Source of the DNA: an uncultured Winogradskyella sp.
GTDB lineage: Bacteria > Bacteroidota > Bacteroidia > Flavobacteriales > Flavobacteriaceae
Direction: 5' to 3'
Assembly (NCBI RefSeq): GCF_947496485.1
Contig: NZ_CANMCZ010000001.1
Coordinates: 615,596-679,595, forward strand
Length of the DNA: 64,000 bases
The notes under the pieces were generated by a model. It did no database searches and was not told the origin of the DNA. It was given only the letters and a program-made list of their open reading frames with translations. Shown in pieces: positions 12,008 through 31,457 of this stretch (positions are counted from its first letter, which is position 1; each line of letters opens with the position of its first letter). Position numbers and translations under genes: made by a program.

Positions 12008-13240
12008 TTATATGGTAACTCCTAAGTCTTTCAATTTACCTTCTAGGTTTTCGTAACCCCTACCTATTTGCCAAGAGTCTTCTATTTCAGTTACTCCGTC
12101 AGCGGTCATTCCTGCCAATAATAATGCAATTCCTGCTCTTAAATCTAAAGCTTTAACCTTTGCTCCTTGCAATTTATTACCACCATGAATTTTTAATAGT
12201 CCTCCATCTATTTCATAATCCATTCCCATTTTTGACAATTCTTCTGCATAGCCGTAACGTCCAGGAAATCTTAAATCTATAATACGAGATTCCCCATTGG
12301 ATGTTGCGCCAAAAACAGCAAATAAAGGCTGCATATCTGAGTTGATACCTGGATAAGGACCTGTGCTAATATCTATAGGAAAAGCTTCACCACCTCTAAC
12401 AATAAGCGAATTCTCTCCTCTATAAAATTTCATTCCACTTTCTCTTAAGTGCACCAAGGGCACTTCTAAATGTTGAAAAGGAAAATCTAATATCTCTACA
12501 TCTCCTTTGGTGACGACAGCACCAATTGCCCAAGTCAAGGCTTCCATATTATCTGAAATGACTTGATGTTTAACACCACGCAATGAATCAACACCTTCTA
12601 TTACAATACACTTTTGACCATATACTTTAATCTGAGCTCCCATTTTATTGAGCATTGAGATTAAGTCTATAATTTCTGGTCTTATATGTGGATTCCATAT
12701 AGTTGATATTCCGTTTGCCAATGTGGCACATAAAATCGCATTTTCGGTTGCTCCGGTAGAACGAATCGGTAAATGGATTTCACAACCTGTTAATCTACCT
12801 TCACTTTGGGTACATAGATAACCATCTTCCTCCCATAGTTTTGCCCCAAATTTCTCTAATAGCATTATATGAAGATCATACTTCCTGTCACCAAGTGGAC
12901 ATCCACCTGGGAGTGGTACTTTTCCATTTCCAAATCTCGTTGTTAATGCACCTAAAATTAAGAGAGAATTTCTAATTGAACGTTCATCCCAAAGTAATTC
13001 TGTATTTAATGTATTCTCAGTAATTTTCAGATATCTATCTCCCTCAATACAAGTTTTACCCATCTGGTTTAGCATTTTAATATGCACTTGCATATCTAAA
13101 AGTCCATTTGGAGAATTAAAAATTTCAACAGCTTCATCAGTAAGTACTGAAGCAGTTAAAAGTTTAAGCGCGCTATTCTTTGCACCACTTAATCTTACTT
13201 GCCCATTTAGTTGAGATTTTTGTATTTTAATATTCTTCAT
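12008..13240 (-). CDS. murA: MurA-like UDP-GlcNAc 1-carboxyvinyltransferase
   Basis: A 410-residue EPSP-synthase-fold enzyme that transfers the enolpyruvyl group of PEP to the 3-OH of UDP-GlcNAc. Residues matching the known E. coli active site are present: K21-N22 in SGAKNSA, R90, the PEP-reactive C114 in PGGCPLGDR, R119, D302 in YPGINSDMQ, R368 in DLRAG and R394 in IGRGYE. All catalytic positions I can check are intact, so it should be active and fosfomycin-sensitive by the cysteine criterion. It lies between two sister flippases and two genes before murB, not in the dcw cluster. A good Bacteroidetes promoter precedes it. It could be the housekeeping MurA or a paralogue dedicated to the polymer. 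Confidence 0.9.
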   Translation of the reverse strand: MKNIKIQKSQLNGQVRLSGAKNSALKLLTASVLTDEAVEIFNSPNGLLDMQVHIKMLNQMGKTCIEGDRYLKITENTLNTELLWDERSIRNSLLILGALTTRFGNGKVPLPGGCPLGDRKYDLHIMLLEKFGAKLWEEDGYLCTQSEGRLTGCEIHLPIRSTGATENAILCATLANGISTIWNPHIRPEIIDLISMLNKMGAQIKVYGQKCIVIEGVDSLRGVKHQVISDNMEALTWAIGAVVTKGDVEILDFPFQHLEVPLVHLRESGMKFYRGENSLIVRGGEAFPIDISTGPYPGINSDMQPLFAVFGATSNGESRIIDLRFPGRYGYAEELSKMGMDYEIDGGLLKIHGGNKLQGAKVKALDLRAGIALLLAGMTADGVTEIEDSWQIGRGYENLEGKLKDLGVTI

Positions 13241-20356: not shown

Positions 20357-23300
20357 ATGAAAAAAACTTACTTTTTTTACTTGTTGGTAGCCCTTTTCTC
20401 ATTTGGGTTTAGTCAATCGACTATTGTTACTATCGATCGTGCAAATATCATCGGTCCCACAACTACTGGTCATGATCCTTCAATATCAGCGATAGGTCTT
20501 ACTAGGGGCGTTGGTGTTGTGCGTCACACAGGTAGTTCCAACTTTTCCACTAGAAACTGGGATGCAACAAGTCAAGCTAGTGCTGTTGCCAACAATGAGT
20601 ATTTACAGTGGTCTGTTTCTGCTAGTGCATCCAATAGTATTGAAATTACCGAATTTGATATTAGAACTAGAACAGGTACAAGTACAGATGGCCCAACAAA
20701 TTGGCAAGTTTTTTACAGTACAGATGATTTTGCAACAGCTGGAATACCAGCAACGTCAGTCCAAACAGCATCTAATATCACTACTGATTTCAATTTTAAT
20801 GGTTTAAGTATTTTGTCTGGTATAGGTGGTAAAATTACCTTTAGACTTTATGCATGGAATTCTACTACAACTAGTGGATGGTTTAGAATTATAAAAAATC
20901 CTGGATGGTCTGCATATGGTATTTCTGATCCAGGCCTAAGATTAATAGGCACAATAACTAGCTCTACTGCTAATAATACTGAATCTAACATTGTTGCAAC
21001 TAGTTTCGATCCTTCCGATAATATTAACTATTCATTGTACAGTGAAACTTCTGGTTTAACAATATCTAATTCAATTAAAGTAGGTGAATTTTCGATTCAA
21101 GATGGTGGAGATGATTTAACCGATGCAGATGCTGTGGCCACCATTTTAACAGATTTAGAATTTGGTGTAACCAATAGTGATTTTATTGCTCGTTTAGCCA
21201 TTTTTGATGGTATCACAAATATTTCGGAGACATCAATAGTTTCTGAAACAGCTACATTCTCTGGTATTAGTGGTATTAGCGCTTTAGACAATAGCACTAA
21301 AACTTTTGATGTTTATGCAACCTTTAACGCCTCAGTTATTGACAATGAGCAATTTCAATTGACTGTCAACTCTGCGTCAGCAGATGTTACTGGGTCATCA
21401 TTCAATGCTTTTAATGCTGGCGGAGCTCAAACACCAATTACTGGTGATGATAATAGAATTGAAGTAATTGCAACTAAACTAATATACGACCAACAACCTA
21501 CAGATACTTTTCAGTTTGAGATTATGACCCCTTTCCCTACTGTATTAGCAGTTGACAATAATAATAATCGCGATTTAGATTTTAATACAACCATTTCTGT
21601 TTTAGCTGCTGGTGGTTCATTAGAGCCGTCACTTATAAACTATACTTTGACAGATGGTTCTGCAATTCTTAATACTCTTATATTCACTGAGAGCGATATT
21701 GTTGAAACACTTGTAACATTTGGAGGTGGACTACCCGCAGCTATAAGTAATTCATTTAATGTCTTAGGTCCTTTGATTACTATTGCCTTACAAGATTTTG
21801 ATTCCGGTTCACCTGATTGGACGTACTCTAGTGACGTAGCAACCTTTGATAATGGTTGGGGGATAGACGGATATTATGGAGTAATTGACATCTCAAATGC
21901 TGGACCTTTAGACTACCCTTCATTTTCAAATAATATTTTTGGTGAAAATGATTTAAATGACGAAGGCGAAAATGGCTCATCTGGCTTTGCAACTTTAACA
22001 TTTGATACCATAGACATTAGTACTTATAATGACGTTGCACTAACATTTGATTGGGATGTTCATGGTTATGTAAGTGCTGCAAATTGTGATGCTGAATATA
22101 GGTTAATATACGATGGAATTCCTCAGCCTGTAGTTTTTCTTTTAAATGGAAATGGAGAAATCGACACCGATGAAGGTACTGTCTCTGTGAACATTCCTAA
22201 CTCAGTAAATGCAGTTAGTTTAATAGTTAGAGTACGAAATGATGGCGAGACTGGTTACTCAGGTTTTGACAACTTTAAATTGACTAGTGTATTTGATGGT
22301 TTGCTTTACACCAATAATGGCTGGACACCGAATGCGCCTTCTACCTCTACTGGAAGTGAAGATGCATATGTTCTTGATGGAACTTATAATGTCGGAACCG
22401 ACATAGTGCTCAATAGATTATTCATCAACAATGGTGCTACAACAACTGTTTCAGCAGGACAATCTATTACTTCAAATTCAGGTGTAATAAATAATGGGGT
22501 ATTAGAATTAAATTCTGTTTCTACATCTTATTCTAGTTTAATTTCTGATAATGTAAATGGTGAAGTTGTTTATAACCGACACGTAAACCAATTTGCTTCT
22601 TCAGGTTCTTCAACAGGAAATAACGATTTAATTTCAGCACCTGTAACGAATGCAGACCAAACATTCTTAGTCCTAAGGACAGCGAATCCAGATATGCCAT
22701 CTGGTACTATTGGAGGAGTGCCCTCTTTCTTATTCGGACCATTTGATAATAATGCAAATACATATATCAACTATACAGCAGCAGATGACAATTCTGTTAT
22801 CACTTCTGGTATTGGATATAGAACGGCATCTACCGAACCCACTGGTTCTACATTTGAATTTGTTGGTAATGCCGAAACAGGAGCTATATCAACTCCGATC
22901 TCAGTTGGAACTGGAAGTGAATTTAACCTAGTCGGTAATCCCTATCCTTCATATATAAGCCTTTCTAGCTTCTTAGCCAGTAATAGCAGTGAATTTAGTC
23001 CGTCAACCTCTGGTGTATACGGTTATGATGGTGATGCAACCGATGGTTTTACAATTTGGAACCAAGCATACTCCGATGCCAATCCTACTGCAAAAATTAC
23101 ACCAGGTCAAGGATTTCTTGTAGCTTCTAAAGCTGGAGGAGGTACCATTGCTTTCACACCTGATATGCGTACAAAAGGTACAACGGACGATTTTATTGCC
23201 GGAAGATTTGCTAATTTAAACTTAGCGCATATGAAGCTTCAATTGTCTAAAGGAAATTCTTTATATAATACAGATCTATATTTTAATGATAATGCATCAT

Positions 23301-23908
23301 TAGGTATGGATCCTGGTTATGATTCGGCAATGTTCGATGAAACTACACCAGCTTTTGCAATGTATTCCCATTTAGTTGAAAACAATTTTGGCAAAGACAT
23401 GGCTGTACAATCTGTTAGTTATTCAGACATAGATAATGTTACTATTCCATTAGGAATTAATATAGCACAAGGAGAACAAGCTACTGTAAGTATATTTGAA
23501 AACAATATACCAGAAGGTATAACTGTAATTCTAGAGGACAACGTTACGAATACGTTTACTAATTTATTAGAAGGTGACTATATATTTACACCTACAACAA
23601 CTCTAAGTGAGACAGGTCGTTTTTACATTCATTTCTCTAATACGACTCTGAATACTACAGAAAATATTTTAAATGGTTTAGAAATTTACACAAATGCTAA
23701 TCCTAAAGAAATTGTAGTAAAAGGTCAATTAGAAAGTAAAACGACATTACAACTGTACGATATACAAGGTCGATTAGTTAACACACAATTATTAAATACT
23801 AAAGACACAAAACATACTGTTGATGTTTCTAATCTTTCTGCTGGCGTTTACGTAGTACAATTACTAAACAACTTTGGAAACAGAACTCAAAAAGTAATTT
23901 TGAAATAA
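20357..23908 (+). CDS. Large secreted/surface protein with type IX sorting domain
   Basis: A 1183-residue exported protein. A signal peptide covers residues 1 to about 19 (ending FGFSQS). An N-terminal beta-rich domain (about 25-200) is shared with the protein at 24802. A central section of about 430 residues (about 205-640) is absent from that paralogue and includes repeated beta-sandwich-like segments. The shared C-terminal part starts near LLYTNNGWTPNAPS and contains GNPYPSYI and GYDGDATDGFTIWNQAYSD. The last 75 residues form a T9SS type A sorting domain with LQLYDIQGRLV and DVSNLSAGVYVVQL. The sorting domain is normally removed on export and the protein attached to the cell surface or released. 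No catalytic motif is visible; an adhesin or matrix role is inference. Confidence 0.9.
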   Translation: MKKTYFFYLLVALFSFGFSQSTIVTIDRANIIGPTTTGHDPSISAIGLTRGVGVVRHTGSSNFSTRNWDATSQASAVANNEYLQWSVSASASNSIEITEFDIRTRTGTSTDGPTNWQVFYSTDDFATAGIPATSVQTASNITTDFNFNGLSILSGIGGKITFRLYAWNSTTTSGWFRIIKNPGWSAYGISDPGLRLIGTITSSTANNTESNIVATSFDPSDNINYSLYSETSGLTISNSIKVGEFSIQDGGDDLTDADAVATILTDLEFGVTNSDFIARLAIFDGITNISETSIVSETATFSGISGISALDNSTKTFDVYATFNASVIDNEQFQLTVNSASADVTGSSFNAFNAGGAQTPITGDDNRIEVIATKLIYDQQPTDTFQFEIMTPFPTVLAVDNNNNRDLDFNTTISVLAAGGSLEPSLINYTLTDGSAILNTLIFTESDIVETLVTFGGGLPAAISNSFNVLGPLITIALQDFDSGSPDWTYSSDVATFDNGWGIDGYYGVIDISNAGPLDYPSFSNNIFGENDLNDEGENGSSGFATLTFDTIDISTYNDVALTFDWDVHGYVSAANCDAEYRLIYDGIPQPVVFLLNGNGEIDTDEGTVSVNIPNSVNAVSLIVRVRNDGETGYSGFDNFKLTSVFDGLLYTNNGWTPNAPSTSTGSEDAYVLDGTYNVGTDIVLNRLFINNGATTTVSAGQSITSNSGVINNGVLELNSVSTSYSSLISDNVNGEVVYNRHVNQFASSGSSTGNNDLISAPVTNADQTFLVLRTANPDMPSGTIGGVPSFLFGPFDNNANTYINYTAADDNSVITSGIGYRTASTEPTGSTFEFVGNAETGAISTPISVGTGSEFNLVGNPYPSYISLSSFLASNSSEFSPSTSGVYGYDGDATDGFTIWNQAYSDANPTAKITPGQGFLVASKAGGGTIAFTPDMRTKGTTDDFIAGRFANLNLAHMKLQLSKGNSLYNTDLYFNDNASLGMDPGYDSAMFDETTPAFAMYSHLVENNFGKDMAVQSVSYSDIDNVTIPLGINIAQGEQATVSIFENNIPEGITVILEDNVTNTFTNLLEGDYIFTPTTTLSETGRFYIHFSNTTLNTTENILNGLEIYTNANPKEIVVKGQLESKTTLQLYDIQGRLVNTQLLNTKDTKHTVDVSNLSAGVYVVQLLNNFGNRTQKVILK

Positions 23909-24084: not shown

Positions 24085-24402
24085 TAATTTATACTTATCA
24101 TTTAAAAATGGTGCTTTTATCTAAACCTAAGAACAATTTAGATAATTTAAGTATTTACAGTAGTCAAAGTGATAAAACTGTTGTTATTTCAGATCAGTAA
24201 TTTGAGCTTACAACAGTAAAAATTTATGACTTACAAGGTAAAGTTATTAATACTTCATTATTACAAATTTCTGATAGATTTCAAACTATAGATATAAGTA
24301 ATATGAGTACCTATGAGTACCGAAGATTATGCAGTTCAATTAACTAATAAGACTCAAAACAAATCCCGAAAAGTGATATTAAGAGAATCAGCTTATATTT
24401 AA
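24085..24402 (+). pseudogene. Decayed T9SS sorting-domain fragment of a third paralogue
   Basis: This stretch aligns at DNA level with the 3' end of the gene at 24802-26964 (about 26680-26964). The parent's DNA for LDNLSIYSNQNNKTVV is recognisable as LDNLSIYSSQSDKTVV in the fragment. Two lesions are visible: TTA of the parent is TAA here (24198-24200), and a 10-bp tandem duplication (GAGTACCTAT followed by GAGTACC, about 24305-24322) shifts the frame. The 5' part of the gene is gone. The fragment keeps a terminator of its own just downstream. It is a relic of a former tandem array of sorting-domain proteins. Confidence 0.85.
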
Positions 24403-24801: not shown

Positions 24802-26964
24802 ATGAAATTTTTAATACCCCTTTTCCTACTACTTAATTTTCAATTTACGAATGGGCAAGTTATTGCTGCATTTTCAGGCACAGCAACTCCAACTGTAGCC
24901 ACAGTAAATGACATTAATGCGAGTGCTTTAACGCCAGGTTCAGGCGTAGAAATTCAGACGTCAGCAATATTTGAATGTAAACGTTGGACAAATTCTTCAG
25001 TTATTGATTTTACCGATTATATTGAATGGAGTGTTATAGCAAACTCTGATTTTTCGATAAATATAACAACCGTAAATGTATCTTATAATGCAGGTAATAA
25101 AGCGCCGCAAACTATAGAATTGAGAACAAGTTTAGATAATTATACAACCATATTGTTTTCAACATCTATTAACGCAAACTCTACTGGAGTCCTAAATATC
25201 CCAACCTCTCTTACTTCCCTAATTGGCGGAACAATTACATTTAGACTATTTGGCTATAATTCAGGCAATCCAAATGCCGCAAGTCGCTTTGGCATTAATG
25301 GAGGGTTAAACACTCAAATTGGATTAACAAACACTGGAATAACTTTAGAAGGTTCAGTAACTTACAATGGATTATACTATGATGGAACTTCTTGGACACC
25401 ATTTGCGCCTAGTAGCACAACTGGTAGTAGTAATGCAATAGTAGCAGACGGAAGTTATACAATAAACTCAGATGTAAACCTTAATAACCTAGAAATCAGA
25501 TCGCCGAGCACCTTAATTGTAGATAAAGGAGACTCTATAAATATATTTGGAAATTTAACAGTTGATGGTATTTTAGAACTATGTTCTGACTCTAATGAGT
25601 ACTCAAGTCTTATTGTAGATGGAATAACATCAGGTGATGTTTCATACAAAAGACATGTTAACAATACAGCCGCAGTTGGAGAGGAAGACTCTAATGATTT
25701 AATTGCACCGCCTGTATCAGGTGAAGCTTTTAATAGTTTTTTGACTAATAACTCAAACATTGTAAGTAATAGTAGTAATACCTTATACCTATTTGGTCCT
25801 TTTGATAAGACAATTGGAAGTTATGTAACCTATTCTAATACAGAAACTGCAACATTAGACGCTGGAACTGGTTATAGGGCTGCATCTACGGATACTGGTA
25901 CATTTACATTCACTGGTATAGTGAATACTGGTACAATCACAAAATCAATCAGTAATTCTGGCCCTGCATTTGAAGAATGGAATTTGATTGGCAACCCATA
26001 TCCCAGTTATATAAAACTAGCTGACTTTCTGAGTAGTAATATTGCTCAACTAGACCCGTTTAGTGCGGGAATTTATGGTTATGATGGTGATGCAAGCGAT
26101 GGCTGGACAATCTGGAATCAAGCTTATTCGGATGATAATCCTGGTACTGTAATTACTCCAGGTCAAGGCTTTTTGGTGGCTTCAAAAACAGGAGGTGGAA
26201 ATATAACTTATAACGCTGATATGCGTTCGACCGGGAATTCTGATGATTTCATTCTAGGTCGTTCAAATAACATAAATTCATCTCACTTTAAACTTTTAAT
26301 CTCGAATGATTCTAAATCTTATTCTACTGACTTTTATTTTAATCCTAATGCAAGTAGAGGTTTAGATATTGGATATGATGCAAGCCTTTTTGGCAATATA
26401 ATACCTGCTTTCTCAGTATATTCTCAATTAATTGAAAACAACGAAGGAAGAGCTATGGCTATTCAAGCTTTTGGAGAAGATGACCTTTCAGATGCCACTA
26501 TTCCTTTAGGAGTTAATGCAAATCAGGCAGAAGCTATTACGTTTAGTATTAATGTATCTACTTTACCAAGTACTGTTGATGTGTATTTAGAAGATAATGT
26601 TAATAATACATTCACATTATTAACAGCTAGTGATTATACACTAACGCCAAACACAAATTTGAATGGTACTGGTCGTTTCTACTTACATGTTACAAACGGT
26701 GCATTATCTACACCTGAAAATACTTTAGATAATTTGAGTATTTATAGTAATCAAAATAATAAAACTGTTGTTATTACTGGTCAGTTATTTCAGCCTACAA
26801 CAGTAAAAATTTATGATTTACAAGGTAGAGTTGTGAATACTTCATTATTACAAATTTCTCACAGATCTCAATCTATAGATGTGAGCAATTTGAGTACGGG
26901 AGTTTATGTAGTTCAATTGGTTAATGAAACTCAAAACAAATATCAAAAAGTAATTATTCATTAA
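24802..26964 (+). CDS. Secreted/surface protein with type IX sorting domain (shorter paralogue)
   Basis: A 720-residue exported protein. The signal peptide is MKFLIPLFLLLNFQFTNGQ. The N-terminal domain (about 20-195) and C-terminal part (from LYYDGTSWTPFAPS, about 198 onward) match the corresponding parts of the protein at 20357, including GNPYPSYI, GYDGDASDGWTIWNQAYSD and GQGFLVASK. It lacks the central section of about 430 residues. The C-terminus is a T9SS type A sorting domain (VKIYDLQGRVV, DVSNLSTGVYVVQL). Its 3' end is the closest relative of the decayed fragment just upstream. No enzymatic motif is seen. It probably decorates the surface or biofilm matrix. Confidence 0.9.
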   Translation: MKFLIPLFLLLNFQFTNGQVIAAFSGTATPTVATVNDINASALTPGSGVEIQTSAIFECKRWTNSSVIDFTDYIEWSVIANSDFSINITTVNVSYNAGNKAPQTIELRTSLDNYTTILFSTSINANSTGVLNIPTSLTSLIGGTITFRLFGYNSGNPNAASRFGINGGLNTQIGLTNTGITLEGSVTYNGLYYDGTSWTPFAPSSTTGSSNAIVADGSYTINSDVNLNNLEIRSPSTLIVDKGDSINIFGNLTVDGILELCSDSNEYSSLIVDGITSGDVSYKRHVNNTAAVGEEDSNDLIAPPVSGEAFNSFLTNNSNIVSNSSNTLYLFGPFDKTIGSYVTYSNTETATLDAGTGYRAASTDTGTFTFTGIVNTGTITKSISNSGPAFEEWNLIGNPYPSYIKLADFLSSNIAQLDPFSAGIYGYDGDASDGWTIWNQAYSDDNPGTVITPGQGFLVASKTGGGNITYNADMRSTGNSDDFILGRSNNINSSHFKLLISNDSKSYSTDFYFNPNASRGLDIGYDASLFGNIIPAFSVYSQLIENNEGRAMAIQAFGEDDLSDATIPLGVNANQAEAITFSINVSTLPSTVDVYLEDNVNNTFTLLTASDYTLTPNTNLNGTGRFYLHVTNGALSTPENTLDNLSIYSNQNNKTVVITGQLFQPTTVKIYDLQGRVVNTSLLQISHRSQSIDVSNLSTGVYVVQLVNETQNKYQKVIIH

Positions 26965-27356
26965 TCATTTCTAAATAGTGACAAATCCAAAATAATCGTG
27001 TCCTACTTTTACGATACAGTATTTTTAATTAAAAATATCTATCTTAGTTATTAGGAATTAATTATTAAATGCTTAAAATAATATCTTAATTGTATGTTTT
27101 TTGAAGTTATTATTACTTGAGCTAATGAGTAATAATTAAAAAGCTATTTTAAAATAGAACTATTTATAGATAAAATACGTATATTGATAAGAAACCTTAC
27201 TAATTAAAAGATGTAATCTCTTAATTATGATGTGATTTATAATAAAATACAATTCTTTAGAACCAATAAAAATTGATTTTATTGTAAACCTTTTCGTATT
27301 TTACTTTAATAAATAAATTATTTTACTATTTTTGAACCAAATTTAGGGCAAAAGCC
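26965..27356. other. Intergenic region before the small peptide gene
   Basis: This stretch of 392 bp is very AT-rich. No terminator follows the T9SS gene. TATTTTTG at 27327-27334 fits the -7 pattern TAnnTTTG and lies 23 nt before the peptide start codon, but the expected -33 TTTG is not seen. No further coding frame is supported. Confidence 0.4.
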
Positions 27357-27518
27357 ATGAAGAAAGATAATAATACAGATAAAATCACCCGTAAAGAAGC
27401 CATTAATAAAATGGGTAAATATGCTGCATTAACTGCAGTAGGTACATTCGTGATTTTAAATCCGCTCAAAGCACAGTCGTCGTCACCACCAGACCCAGGA
27501 GGGAATCCTTTCGATTAA
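27357..27518 (+). CDS. 53-residue signal-bearing small peptide, candidate modified-peptide precursor
   Basis: A short gene whose ATG lies 23 nt after a good -7 promoter match. The product has a polar basic start (TDKITRKEAINKMGK), a hydrophobic stretch (YAALTAVGTFVILNPL) and then KAQ followed by the tail SSSPPDPGGNPFD and a stop. The form is that of a secreted peptide: a leader of about 39-40 residues with a Tat-like single RK, cleavage near LKAQ, and a mature tail of 13-14 residues rich in Ser, Pro, Gly and Asp, with no cysteine. The kinase-like gene starts 15 nt after its stop codon. I know no characterised homologue. A phosphorylated or otherwise modified RiPP-like product is inference from context. 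Confidence 0.7.
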   Translation: MKKDNNTDKITRKEAINKMGKYAALTAVGTFVILNPLKAQSSSPPDPGGNPFD

Positions 27519-27533
27519 TTTTTAGTTACAATT

Positions 27534-28667
27534 TTGAACAAAAGACTAGCACCAACTTATGAAAAGTTTTTTGGTGACTATTGGGTATTATGGTACTCCA
27601 AATCTAATAGTTATAGTATTGTTGAGCCTATATTTAAAAAGCTATTAGATTATTATCTTATATCTGATACTCTAGAAACTTTTAAAGCCAAATTGGCTAG
27701 TCATAAAAGTGTTCTAAATGCCGAAGTAATTGCAGAAACATTTCATAATTATCTTAATGATTCTAATAGATTAAAAGAATCTTCTAATCATAAACATATT
27801 ACCTTTGATTCTTCTAATCGTAATATTTCGAAAAAATACGCTATTAAAAATATAACTATTCAGATTTATTATGATTCTGACTTAGTATTAAAAACAATAC
27901 ATCCTGCCTTAGCATATCTTTCAATCGAAAATAGTAATAACATTAAAACTACTTTCGATATTTATCTTCAAAATGAATTCTTATGTTTATTTAAAGATGA
28001 ACAGTTAATTACTTGTGTTCACAAAAGAGACTACCACCTTATGCAAGGTAAATTTATAATGCATCTGCTTTGTACTATTCATGATATAGAGGAAGAAGAT
28101 TGGATAGGAACTTTTCATGGTTCAACGATTATAGATGGAAACTCATCTATTCTATTTATCGGAAAATCTGGAAAAGGAAAAAGTACATTATGTACTTTAT
28201 TAGCCTCCAATGATTTTGGCTTACTTTCAGATGACGTGTCTCCAATGCTTTCAGAAAACAAAAGCATATACTATAACCCTCTAGCAGTATCCATAAAGGA
28301 AGGTGCTTTTAAGGTTCTTAAACCAATCGTAGGTGATTTTGATGCTTTACCCACTATCAAATTTAATAAAACGAAAGGGGCTTTAAAGTACATATCTTGC
28401 AATAGACCAAAAAAAGATTATTACCCTTGCAATGCAATTGTTTTAGTAAATTATGAAAATAATTCAAAAACCGTTTTAGAAAAAGCATCAATTAAAACAA
28501 TACTAGAAACAATAATTCCAGATTCTTGGTTGTCACCAAATCCTTTTCATGCAAAGCAGTTTTTAGATTGGTTGGAAGTAGTAAATATTTATAAACTAAC
28601 ATATAGCGATACTAAAAGTGTTACTGCAGAAGTTTCTAAATTATTTAAATACCTCAATAAAAACTAA
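27534..28667 (+). CDS. PqqD-like / HPr-kinase-like protein
   Basis: A 377-residue protein that starts at TTG; no ATG is available near the N-terminus. The first 80 residues (FFGDYWVLWYSKSN ... ETFHNYL) look like a small PqqD-type winged-helix domain, which in other systems binds leader peptides. From about residue 180 the fold is HPr-kinase-like: H195 in WIGTFHGS, the Walker A loop GKSGKGKST (210-218) and acidic pair D233-D234 in LLSDDVSP. HPr-kinase relatives phosphorylate serine on proteins and, in some lasso peptide clusters, on the peptide. Similar genes also accompany exopolysaccharide loci. It lies 15 nt after the peptide gene and 35 nt before the nucleotidyltransferase. Confidence 0.75.
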   Translation: MNKRLAPTYEKFFGDYWVLWYSKSNSYSIVEPIFKKLLDYYLISDTLETFKAKLASHKSVLNAEVIAETFHNYLNDSNRLKESSNHKHITFDSSNRNISKKYAIKNITIQIYYDSDLVLKTIHPALAYLSIENSNNIKTTFDIYLQNEFLCLFKDEQLITCVHKRDYHLMQGKFIMHLLCTIHDIEEEDWIGTFHGSTIIDGNSSILFIGKSGKGKSTLCTLLASNDFGLLSDDVSPMLSENKSIYYNPLAVSIKEGAFKVLKPIVGDFDALPTIKFNKTKGALKYISCNRPKKDYYPCNAIVLVNYENNSKTVLEKASIKTILETIIPDSWLSPNPFHAKQFLDWLEVVNIYKLTYSDTKSVTAEVSKLFKYLNKN

Positions 28668-28702
28668 TAATAATTCTATATTAGTAGCTTGTTAAATAAT
28701 CT

Positions 28703-29791
28703 ATGGGTAATCTTGCCATTACATATCAACACATTGCGGATATCCTAAGTTTTGAAACTTCAAATCATAAATTAGAGAAAACACTTAGTCATCCTTCATT
28801 CAATTGGGATCATATTGTTGTAGAAGGCAGTAAACACTTAGTTTTACCTGCTATTTATTGTAGGCTAAAAGCTAAAAAACTATTAGGCTTATTGCCAAAA
28901 GAACTTAATAGCTACCTAACAGAAATTACATCATTGAATAGAAATAGAAATGAAGCCATATTAAAGCAGGTTCATTCTATATCCCAACTCTTAAACCAAC
29001 ACCAAATAAATTACACTTTTTTAAAGGGTTCTGCACTCATAGTGCAAGACATCTTTGAAGATATTGCTGAACGCATGATAGGTGATATTGATATTTTAGT
29101 TGATATAGATCAACTAGACAATGCATACCATCTATTAATAACAAATGGTTATACTCCAATAGAACAAACTCTAGGTAATGACTTTTTTGAGCATAAGCAC
29201 CTCCCTAGATTAAAACCTAAGCATGAGATTTGTGCTGTAGAACTTCATCGAAAGTTATTTGTTTCGCACAGCAATACCGAACTAAAATCTAAAACTATAC
29301 TAAGTAAAAAAATAAATCGGTCTAGTGTATTTATACCATCTACCGAACACCTTTTAATGCATAACATTCTTAATTTTCAAATCAATGATAAAGGCACTCT
29401 TTACAATAGCATAAGTTTTCGTTCAGCTTACGATACTATAGTTTTACTACAAGAGTATAACCATAAAAAAGAATGGTATAACAAATGGTATAACAAATGG
29501 TATAACAATAAGATTTTTAAACGCTATTTTAATTACACTAGTCTTTTCTTTAATGAAATAAAAATAATAACTAATGCTAAATCGAATTTCTTTACATCCT
29601 TTTATCTGTTTAAGTTAAAGCATATTAAGTTCTATAAATTTTGGAATCGCTTGTTAAAATTAACAAATTTCATATCAGTAATGTTAAATCGCATGTCTAC
29701 TTTCTTGTTGAATAAATCCTACAGAAAAGCGATAATTAACGATAGAAAACGGATTTACATATATTTTAAGTCGATTTTCGATAATTTTTAG
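28703..29791 (+). CDS. Nucleotidyltransferase family protein (PF14907-like)
   Basis: A 362-residue protein with the nucleotidyltransferase pattern: FLKGSAL (KGS 108-110) and, after a short helix, RMIGDIDILVD with D128 and D130 as metal ligands, followed by a later acidic residue in CAVELHRKL. This is the arrangement of the NTP_transf_5 family, which often travels with PqqD/HPr-kinase-like genes. Substrate unknown. Near residues 257-268 it carries a WYNK-WYNK-WYNN tandem repeat encoded by three identical 12-bp units. The C-terminus after about residue 300 is basic and may associate with membranes. It is the third gene of the peptide group. Confidence 0.75.
   Translation: MGNLAITYQHIADILSFETSNHKLEKTLSHPSFNWDHIVVEGSKHLVLPAIYCRLKAKKLLGLLPKELNSYLTEITSLNRNRNEAILKQVHSISQLLNQHQINYTFLKGSALIVQDIFEDIAERMIGDIDILVDIDQLDNAYHLLITNGYTPIEQTLGNDFFEHKHLPRLKPKHEICAVELHRKLFVSHSNTELKSKTILSKKINRSSVFIPSTEHLLMHNILNFQINDKGTLYNSISFRSAYDTIVLLQEYNHKKEWYNKWYNKWYNNKIFKRYFNYTSLFFNEIKIITNAKSNFFTSFYLFKLKHIKFYKFWNRLLKLTNFISVMLNRMSTFLLNKSYRKAIINDRKRIYIYFKSIFDNF
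29473..29508 (+). repeat. Three tandem 12-bp units inside the nucleotidyltransferase gene
   Basis: ATGGTATAACAA occurs three times in a row with exact identity. It encodes WYNK repeats and keeps the frame. Exact identity suggests recent slippage expansion. Confidence 0.9.
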
Positions 29792-29876
29792 GTTTATTTT
29801 TGTAATTATTATAATAACTTTACATCAATATTTGTTTTATAATGCATAAAGTTTAACTTTGACCAAAATTCTGAGC

Positions 29877-30452
29877 ATGAAGAAATTAATTTTATTAACC
29901 ATATTAGTAGTATTTAGTTTATCATCTTTTGCCCAACGAAATAATAACGAGTGGTTTTTAAGCGTTGGTTTTAACTCTGTAAATAGTTTGGGGTCTCATT
30001 CACCTATATTTCATCCAGATGAATGGATTACACAGTTCCCAATTTCTGCAGCTGTAGAATTTAATTGGAGTGAAGACTTTGCTATCGAACAATCAATAAC
30101 CTTAAATGGTTTTACTGAAGAAGACGAAATTGACGGCGTCGATTTAAAAAAAGATTACAACTATTTATCTTTTGACACCCATATAAAATATTATTTTGGA
30201 AAGCACCTTTTTGGTCGTACGAGCAATATTGATTGGTTAGATCTTTATGTAAATGCTGGTCTTGGCTTCTTTAGCATAGATGAGACTAATATATCTGCTA
30301 ATTTAGGTGGTGGAGCTTTATTTTGGTTAAACCAAAATAGAAGTTTTGGTATTAGAGCTCAAGTTATTGGTAAGTTTGCATTTAATCATTCTGAGAGTGG
30401 ATTAGATAATAACCACTATCAATATCATTTACAAGCAGTATTTAAATTATAA
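29877..30452 (+). CDS. Outer-membrane beta-barrel protein
   Basis: I chose the ATG at 29877 over an upstream TTG at 29859 because it gives a clean signal peptide (MKKLILLTILVVFSLSSFAQ). The mature part of about 170 residues has alternating beta-strand character ending in an aromatic/hydrophobic strand (YQYHLQAVFKL), the pattern of small outer-membrane barrels of the OmpA/OprF-porin-like type. No OmpA peptidoglycan-binding domain is attached. It follows the nucleotidyltransferase by 85 nt and may be read from the same transcript or from a promoter in that gap. It shares the downstream terminator. Confidence 0.8.
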   Translation: MKKLILLTILVVFSLSSFAQRNNNEWFLSVGFNSVNSLGSHSPIFHPDEWITQFPISAAVEFNWSEDFAIEQSITLNGFTEEDEIDGVDLKKDYNYLSFDTHIKYYFGKHLFGRTSNIDWLDLYVNAGLGFFSIDETNISANLGGGALFWLNQNRSFGIRAQVIGKFAFNHSESGLDNNHYQYHLQAVFKL

Positions 30453-30473: not shown

Positions 30474-30505
30474 AAAAAAGGCGCACTACTATAATGCGCC
30501 TTTTT
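30474..30505. terminator. Bidirectional terminator between convergent genes
   Basis: AAAAAAGGCGCA (30474-30485) and TGCGCCTTTTT (30495-30505) form a GC-rich stem flanked by an A-run and a T-run. It can stop transcription both from the beta-barrel gene (plus) and from UDP-glucuronate decarboxylase (minus). Confidence 0.92.
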
Positions 30506-30509
30506 ATTT

Positions 30510-31457
30510 TTATTGTTCTTCCCTCAAAAGCTTATCAAAATAATTTATTGTATGCTTTAACCCTTCTTTTAGGTGAACTTTAGGCTCCCAGCCTCCTAAC
30601 TCTTTTTTCGCTAAATTTATATCTGGTTGACGTTGTAAAGGGTCATCTTGTGGCAAAGGCATATATGTGATTTTTGATTTAGAATCTATTATATCAGTTA
30701 TTTCCTTTGCTAATTCTAACATTGTAAATTCTACAGGGTTACCTATGTTTACAGGACCTACAAAGCTATCTCTACTATTCATCATTCTATGAGTTCCTTC
30801 GATAAGATCATCTACGTATTGAAAACTTCTAGTTTGAGTTCCATCACCAAAGATAGTTATATCATCACCCTTTAAAGCCTGAACAATAAAATTTGATACT
30901 ACTCTTCCATCTTGAGGATGCATTCTAGGACCATACGTATTAAAAATGCGAATGATTTTAATCTTCACTTGGTTTTGGTTATGGTAATCCATAAATAAGG
31001 TTTCAGCGCAACGCTTACCTTCATCATAACAGGAACGTAGACCAATTGGATTAACGTTTCCCCAATAACTTTCTGGCTGAGGGTGTACTGTTGGGTCGCC
31101 GTAAACCTCACTAGTGGAAGCCTGTAATATTTTTGCTCCAACTCGTTTAGCCAAACCTAGCATATTTATAGCTCCCATAACCGAGGTTTTAACTGTTTTT
31201 ATAGGATTATATTGATAATGTACTGGTGAGGCAGGACAAGCCAAATTATATATTTCGTCAACTTCAATCATATATGGATTGGTAATATCATGTCGAACTA
31301 ACTCAAAATAGTGGTTATCCATTAGGTGCTCAATATTTCGTTTTGAGCCAGTAAAATAATTATCTAAACAAATAACTTCGTTGCCTTCTTTTAATAAACG
31401 ATCACATAAATGAGAGCCCACAAACCCAGCGCCTCCAGTTACCAATATTCTTTTCAT
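30510..31457 (-). CDS. uxs: UDP-glucuronate decarboxylase (UDP-xylose synthase)
   Basis: A 315-residue short-chain dehydrogenase/reductase. The NAD loop is GGAGFVGSH (8-16), ACPASP and [12 protein letters not shown] are typical of UXS, and the catalytic YxxxK appears as [19 protein letters not shown] and [13 protein letters not shown] complete the family pattern. It converts UDP-glucuronate to UDP-xylose in the cytoplasm. It is not in the large polysaccharide island but could supply it with xylose. It begins 51 nt after the M90 peptidase gene ends. Confidence 0.93.

Follow-up and report, generated by a model that had tools for sequence, protein, structure and literature searches.

A conserved Flavobacteriaceae gene linkage of a small peptide, an HprK-type kinase and a PF14907 nucleotidyltransferase with a subfamily of type IX secretion cargo

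The locus and its genes

In a 64,000-nt stretch of DNA from an uncultured Winogradskyella sp. (hereafter the window; contig NZ_CANMCZ010000001.1, forward-strand positions 615,596 to 679,595), a gene for a 53-residue peptide is preceded by a gene for a cargo protein of the type IX secretion system (T9SS) and followed by genes for a kinase and a nucleotidyltransferase (NTase). An initial annotation, made from the letters of the window, had grouped peptide, kinase, NTase and a small outer-membrane barrel at 27357-30452 into a candidate peptide-modification system. The order, coordinates and spacing that it gave are exact (15 nt between peptide and kinase, 35 nt between kinase and NTase); NTase and barrel are 67 nt apart, and the terminator proposed to close the unit is probably a hairpin with T-run that is visible by eye. 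The unit itself, however, extends upstream to the cargo gene at 24802-26964. Four families, namely the peptide, the kinase, the PF14907 protein and a domain, here called domain X, that precedes the C-terminal sorting domain (CTD) of the cargo, are found in the same genomes and frequently adjoin one another, a linkage about which we have hardly any doubt. The T9SS cargo is the main partner that the initial annotation had overlooked, as it had overlooked genomes in which six peptides are served by one distant kinase. The features of the locus are as follows.

20357..23908, + strand: first T9SS type A cargo gene, 1183 aa (TIGR04183, 39.1 bits against a cut-off of 23; domain X, 1e-75)
24802..26964, + strand: partner T9SS type A cargo gene, 720 aa (TIGR04183, 40.5 bits against a cut-off of 23)
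26104..26694, + strand: domain X of the partner, a RemA/RemZ homologue (PDB 8gl6, 8gl8)
26740..26958, + strand: T9SS type A sorting domain (CTD) of the partner (TIGR04183, residues 647-719)
27327..27334, + strand: TATTTTTG, possible promoter element
27357..27518, + strand: peptide precursor, 53 aa, ATG start; charged leader, hydrophobic stretch, LNPLKAQ, tail SSSPPDPGGNPFD
27483..27485, + strand: codon of the invariant Ser43, proposed modification site
27534..28667, + strand: HprK/PEPCK-fold kinase, 377 aa, TTG start (structure model, Foldseek, invariant residues)
28703..29791, + strand: PF14907 NTase, 362 aa
29859..30452, + strand: small outer-membrane barrel, accessory at most (PF13505, 26.4 bits, just below the cut-off of 28.7)
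~30475..30510, + strand: hairpin with T-run, likely terminator

The peptide gene is real and under purifying selection. Compared with five relatives of equal length, it differs at 3-13 nonsynonymous and 16-24 synonymous positions, corresponding to nonsynonymous rates (dN) of 0.025-0.116 and synonymous rates (dS) of 0.68-1.77. These rates, an alignment of 27 members and the recurrence of the frame beside the kinase in many genera led us to reject a chance open reading frame (ORF). Besides the start, R12, A15, G20, A24, T26, A27, L34, P36 and S43 are invariant in the alignment. A conserved block of ~60 nt precedes the gene and contains TATTTTTG, which occurs in 8/9 aligned upstream regions of close relatives and which may be a promoter element of TAnnTTTG type.

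For the kinase, both fold and catalytic residues support the relationship to HPr kinases that had been claimed. Its AlphaFold model (predicted local distance difference test score, pLDDT, 92.9) resembles phosphoenolpyruvate carboxykinases and HPr kinases among the best 50 Foldseek matches, and H195, K216, D233 and D234 are invariant across 33 kinases. By our own assignment, these four residues may correspond to the His-Lys-Asp-Asp motif of lasso-peptide Ser kinases, whose importance was shown there by mutation according to PMC9266682. TIGR04352 (HprK-related kinase A) matches all 33 kinases at E<=10, at best with 1.4e-23. The PqqD-like domain that had been proposed at the N-terminus, and with it the binding of the leader by such a domain, found no support in Pfam, NCBIfam or PDB comparisons. 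No Pfam match at E<=1 to PqqD was obtained for the window kinase; PqqD was absent among 25 of 66 families listed for the 33 kinases, among 25 of 107 NCBIfam families listed for the kinases, among the 24 that were reported for N-terminal pieces of 19 kinases, and by name among 21 PDB matches of these pieces; and PF05402 had no match in the window's own genome. Residues 9-77 of the model form three strands and three helices in an order merely compatible with PqqD.

The PF14907 assignment of the NTase stands, with 117.6 bits against a cut-off of 31.2 and its catalytic residues intact: K108, G109, R124, D128 and D130 (KG, R, DxD) are invariant across 30 NTases. Its structure model (pLDDT 91.1) matches MenT1 as well as nucleotidyltransferases acting on lincosamides and aminoglycosides; a weaker match is FKRP, in an entry that contains CDP-ribitol. 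The barrel, which had been counted as part of the system, is present at the window locus, but its cluster is found in only 21/37 loci (a set made up of the window together with 8 named contigs and 28 genome regions), and we rejected it as a core component. The only recurring neighbours in these loci are T9SS cargo, NTase, barrel and housekeeping genes. The closest named relatives retrieved are flavobacterium ALC-1 and several Winogradskyella.

Co-occurrence with the kinase and with one class of cargo

Among 299 Flavobacteriaceae genomes, the kinase was detected in 29 and the peptide in 32, with both in 28 (Fisher p 6e-34, kinship ignored); the sole kinase-only genome, G048, is 82% complete and has its kinase at a contig edge. 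The peptide is present in 24/236 sampled genera. In a phylum-wide set of 395 genomes, exactly the same five carry the peptide and give a strong kinase match, while seven genomes of other families with weak HprK-like matches (42-57 bits) gave no peptide match. The NTase accompanies the kinase in 27/29 Flavobacteriaceae genomes and likewise in the two additional kinase genomes; it was missed in G067 and G151 (87% and 82% complete). Its presence was established by direct search in 10 genomes and by adjacency elsewhere. The initial annotation had named two findings that would count against a peptide-modification system, a peptide frame not conserved beside homologous kinases and enzymes that always travel with exopolysaccharide genes; we observed neither.

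A search for the peptide returned 55 matches, from which a weak match in L134 and the second half of a frame-broken copy in L032 were dropped, leaving 53. The kinase lies directly downstream of 31 of these 53. In G123, G055, G149, G004, G067, G383 and G597 it has no adjacent peptide, and the peptide is found elsewhere in the genome; in G004 it lies ahead of the NTase within the same cluster. G383 and G597, which belong to one genus, each encode six peptides and a single kinase-NTase pair apart from all six, and the enzymes can therefore act in trans.

These arrangements bear on the possibility that kinase and NTase serve the synthesis of a cell-surface glycan, with the peptide as a bystander. 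In G149 and G055 the PF14907 gene (L148, L149) lies apart from the kinase on the opposite strand, amid genes that, judged by eye, resemble those for making and exporting polysaccharides, and several loci are near dehydratase/epimerase-type genes. However, 28/29 kinase genomes hold the peptide, the kinase directly follows it in most cases, and the one peptide described below in which a tyrosine replaces the invariant serine comes from a genome where no kinase was found. We thus regard a pure glycan role as very improbable.

The most constant neighbour of the peptide lies on its other side. In 50/55 peptides with upstream sequence, the closest gene upstream encodes T9SS cargo and reads in the same direction, as it does in the window, where the gap is 392 nt. 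This number comprises 48/50 peptides of the first set (53 less those in L131, L132 and L133, which begin at a contig edge) and 2/5 peptides or relics from four kinase-less genomes. The neighbour was taken as the nearest ORF of at least 100 aa; among the 48, gaps were at most 782 nt, or 1687 nt for a tandem copy, two of these peptides being second copies of a tandem. The pairing also holds far from the kinase, for 12/12 peptides in G383 and G597. For comparison, three genomes hold 83, 84 and 79 sorting domains, or about two per hundred genes if some 3,700 genes are assumed (our own estimate).

The cargo proteins concerned form a recognizable subfamily. Of the partners, the 45 with 400 aa or more were tested, and in all 45/45 a domain X of ~193 residues directly precedes the sorting domain; their lengths range from 504 to 2537 residues; the partners in L152 and L153 likewise carry it. 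In the window proteins domain X has no Pfam or NCBIfam match above cut-off, and no family of either collection matches more than 2 of 32 aligned domain X sequences at E<=0.1. It is homologous to the sequence that precedes the CTD of F. johnsoniae RemA and RemZ (E 4.8e-21). In the T9SS translocon structures of PMC10994853, only the RemZ CTD is well resolved, lying within the SprA pore together with PorV.

Domain X is not exclusive to this system, a possibility that we rejected, as a weak form is widespread (172/299 genomes). Its scores are two-peaked: 33 genomes have hits of at least 115 bits, the next hit scores 101 bits and all others stay below 95. Strong X and peptide occur together in 29 of the 299 genomes, peptide alone in 3, strong X alone in 4 and neither in 263. 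The peptide lacks a strong X in G067 (which has an X piece at a contig edge), G136 and G295; strong X lacks a peptide in G048, G066, G121 and G161. Within two genera peptide, kinase and strong X are present or absent together: in g29, all three occur in G255 and none in G028; in g39, all three occur in G261 and none in G038. When aligned X members were scored by a profile built without their own group they still reached 141-252 bits, indicating that the split between strong and weak forms is not only an effect of seeding.

The peptide, its serine and a proposed mechanism

The SSS tail had been named as the target of modification. Only its third serine, residue 43, is conserved; the other two are not. 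In tails from kinase genomes, position 7 after the proline of the LNP-type motif is serine in 52/52 cases (L067, truncated by a stop, is omitted and the L032 tail counted once), and it is the one invariant residue of the tail. The residue just before it takes eight different forms among the 52 tails, and the serine itself lies 7 to ~50 residues from the C-terminus among the tails listed. In G283, a genome 89% complete in which neither kinase nor NTase was found, the peptide frame is intact and tyrosine replaces this serine (L153:8611-8742).

Ahead of the serine, the third position after the proline (P+3) is a small residue in 52/52 tails and P+4 is glutamine in 46/52. This pattern resembles a site of the Bacteroidetes Q-rule, by which signal peptidase I cuts with glutamine at +1 (PMC5837995). 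A cut two residues further on fits the -3/-1 pattern in 47/52 tails. Export by the twin-arginine translocation (Tat) pathway was considered and dropped: no Tat family was among the NCBIfam and Pfam matches of the 27 peptides (E<=5).

The linkage of the parts is an observation; for the chemistry, export and function of the peptide module we infer the following scheme, to which, as a conserved module for a modified, exported envelope peptide working with one T9SS cargo subfamily, we assign a probability of about 0.5. The HprK-type kinase would phosphorylate the invariant serine of the precursor in the cytoplasm, and Ser43 is probably its site. The PF14907 enzyme would then build on this phosphate by adding a nucleotidyl, phosphosugar or sugar moiety; that it acts on the Ser43 phosphate we propose tentatively. 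The leader would carry the peptide across the inner membrane, where signal peptidase I would cut near Ala-Gln to release a short Pro/Gly-rich tagged peptide. This product could help T9SS proteins bearing domain X to be secreted, capped or anchored, and whether the peptide has a role for this cargo appears to us an evenly balanced question. Going one step further, the peptide might serve T9SS surface proteins as an acceptor or tether that is encoded in the genome and carries a phospho-tag: the two enzymes would place an anchor or recognition group on the serine through a phosphodiester, and a cargo-finishing step outside the outer membrane would join or dock the X-domain cargo to it, replacing or supplementing a glycolipid. 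We consider this extension a long shot.

Two further explanations have to be weighed against this scheme. The peptide could remain in the inner membrane and act there as an adaptor, recruiting kinase and NTase to the T9SS; these would modify cargo or glycan, and Ser43 would serve as a contact or structural residue. Such a role would suit the adjoining cargo genes, the uncertain signal-peptidase site and the conservation of the 27 aligned peptides, which is stronger in the leader and hydrophobic part than towards the end of the tail. A lone invariant serine amid variable positions looks like a modification site, however, its change to tyrosine occurs in a genome without a detected kinase, and a transmembrane helix would normally be longer than the hydrophobic stretch, which leaves the adaptor unlikely in our view. 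Alternatively, the product might be a secreted natural product or signal of the ribosomally synthesized and post-translationally modified peptide (RiPP) type, with the T9SS cargo as incidental neighbours or as its receptors. A leader, a short tail and tailoring enzymes like those of lasso clusters would fit, but the tail begins with conserved and not with diversified sequence, cargo genes adjoin the peptide even where the kinase is distant, and neither a cyclase nor a peptidase, including the lasso cyclase and leader peptidase families, nor an ABC exporter recurs among the 37 loci (judged by recurring clusters, single ORFs not being annotated). We therefore think a RiPP improbable.

The preferred scheme of a tagged envelope peptide also has a number of observations against it. 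The window kinase falls far below family membership on curated NCBIfam cut-offs, with 44.6 bits for TIGR04352 (cut-off 200) and 14.1 bits for TIGR00679 (HPr kinase/phosphorylase; cut-off 240), and in G040 a stop codon lies inside the kinase (L017, L053). Four genomes that are 82-92% complete (G136, G275, G283 and G295) have the peptide with no kinase and no NTase found, and two of them, G136 and G275 (84% and 82% complete), retain the serine; conversely, G151 has the kinase, yet its peptide has a stop ahead of the tail (L067:2418-2489). The proposed Ala-Gln cut would be unusual because -3 is small or aliphatic in only 15/52 tails and is mostly lysine. No T9SS gene lies upstream of the peptide in L054, L128, L150, L151 and L154. 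As to domain X, the profile (alignment A4) was seeded from partner genomes and the threshold of 115 bits was chosen after the gap had been seen; G121, 99% complete, has a 148-bit X with neither peptide nor kinase; and strong X outnumbers the peptide 7 to 1 in the window's own genome and 9 to 1 in G157, counts by which we rejected a strict one-to-one pairing. In the own genome, five strong-X genes outside the window have no adjoining peptide; these cargo proteins may be clients of the single peptide.

These five genes lie at G000:C2:187000-195000, 388000-396000 and 500000-512000 and at G000:C7:79000-87000, two of them in tandem. Broken peptide copies are also seen in G295, where the peptide survives only as a relic with stops (L154:2592-2666), and in ALC-1, where its frame is broken (L032:5825-5985); these two, the G151 peptide and the G040 kinase may reflect either sequencing error or real decay. 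In small genomes one peptide copy has other neighbours: by eye, the copies in L150 and L151 (G136 and G275) lie between FolD-like and glyoxalase-like genes with no T9SS gene adjoining, and in L132 (G055) the copy stands at a contig edge beside a glyoxalase-like gene, again with no T9SS gene adjoining.

Relation to known systems

The nearest parallels are the lasso-peptide Ser kinases. In the pseudomycoidin cluster, PMC9266682 has PsmK phosphorylate a serine and credits the NTase-like PsmN with adding hexoses to the phosphate, leaving open nucleotidylation followed by a host glycosyltransferase. PsmK/PsmN and the paeninodin-type PadeK and ThcoK likewise combine an HprK-type kinase carrying His-Lys-Asp-Asp with a short precursor bearing a conserved serine, and PsmK/PsmN form a comparable pairing of kinase and nucleotidyltransferase. 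In contrast to the targets of PadeK, ThcoK and PsmK, which are C-terminal serines, Ser43 is not C-terminal, and unlike the lasso clusters the present system has a hydrophobic leader on its precursor and T9SS cargo genes as partners. HPr kinase (TIGR00679) and HprK-related kinase A (TIGR04352) share fold and catalytic residues with the present kinase, which nevertheless scores below the curated cut-offs of both.

T9SS cargo of Bacteroidota includes adhesins, gliding proteins and exoenzymes, and in P. gingivalis it is finished by a sortase and a glycolipid. A dedicated envelope partner for such cargo would thus exist in both cases, there a glycolipid and here, as we propose, a genome-encoded peptide. 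While RemA and RemZ each have a counterpart of domain X ahead of their CTD, the partners described here form a tighter subfamily (at least 115 bits) that occurs almost only with the peptide. Our searches of the open PubMed Central literature did not meet the peptide family or the combination; the enzyme pair and the cargo class are already known. If the scheme is correct, it adds a layer to the sorting, finishing and surface retention of one Rem-type subfamily of T9SS cargo, and the kinase-nucleotidyltransferase pair, known from lasso peptides, gains a second kind of substrate. As the parts are small and flavobacteria can be cultured, the scheme is directly testable.

In G123, five near-identical ORFs of 119 aa stand in tandem at a spacing of 391 nt, with a sixth copy 7 kb on (L128:3080-5003 and 12123-12482). 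In the window itself, the first cargo gene (20357..23908) carries domain X and a sorting domain and has no peptide gene directly after it; between it and the partner gene, a short stretch at 24108-24200 resembles the end of a T9SS sorting region and looks as if it were the remnant of a tandem duplication.

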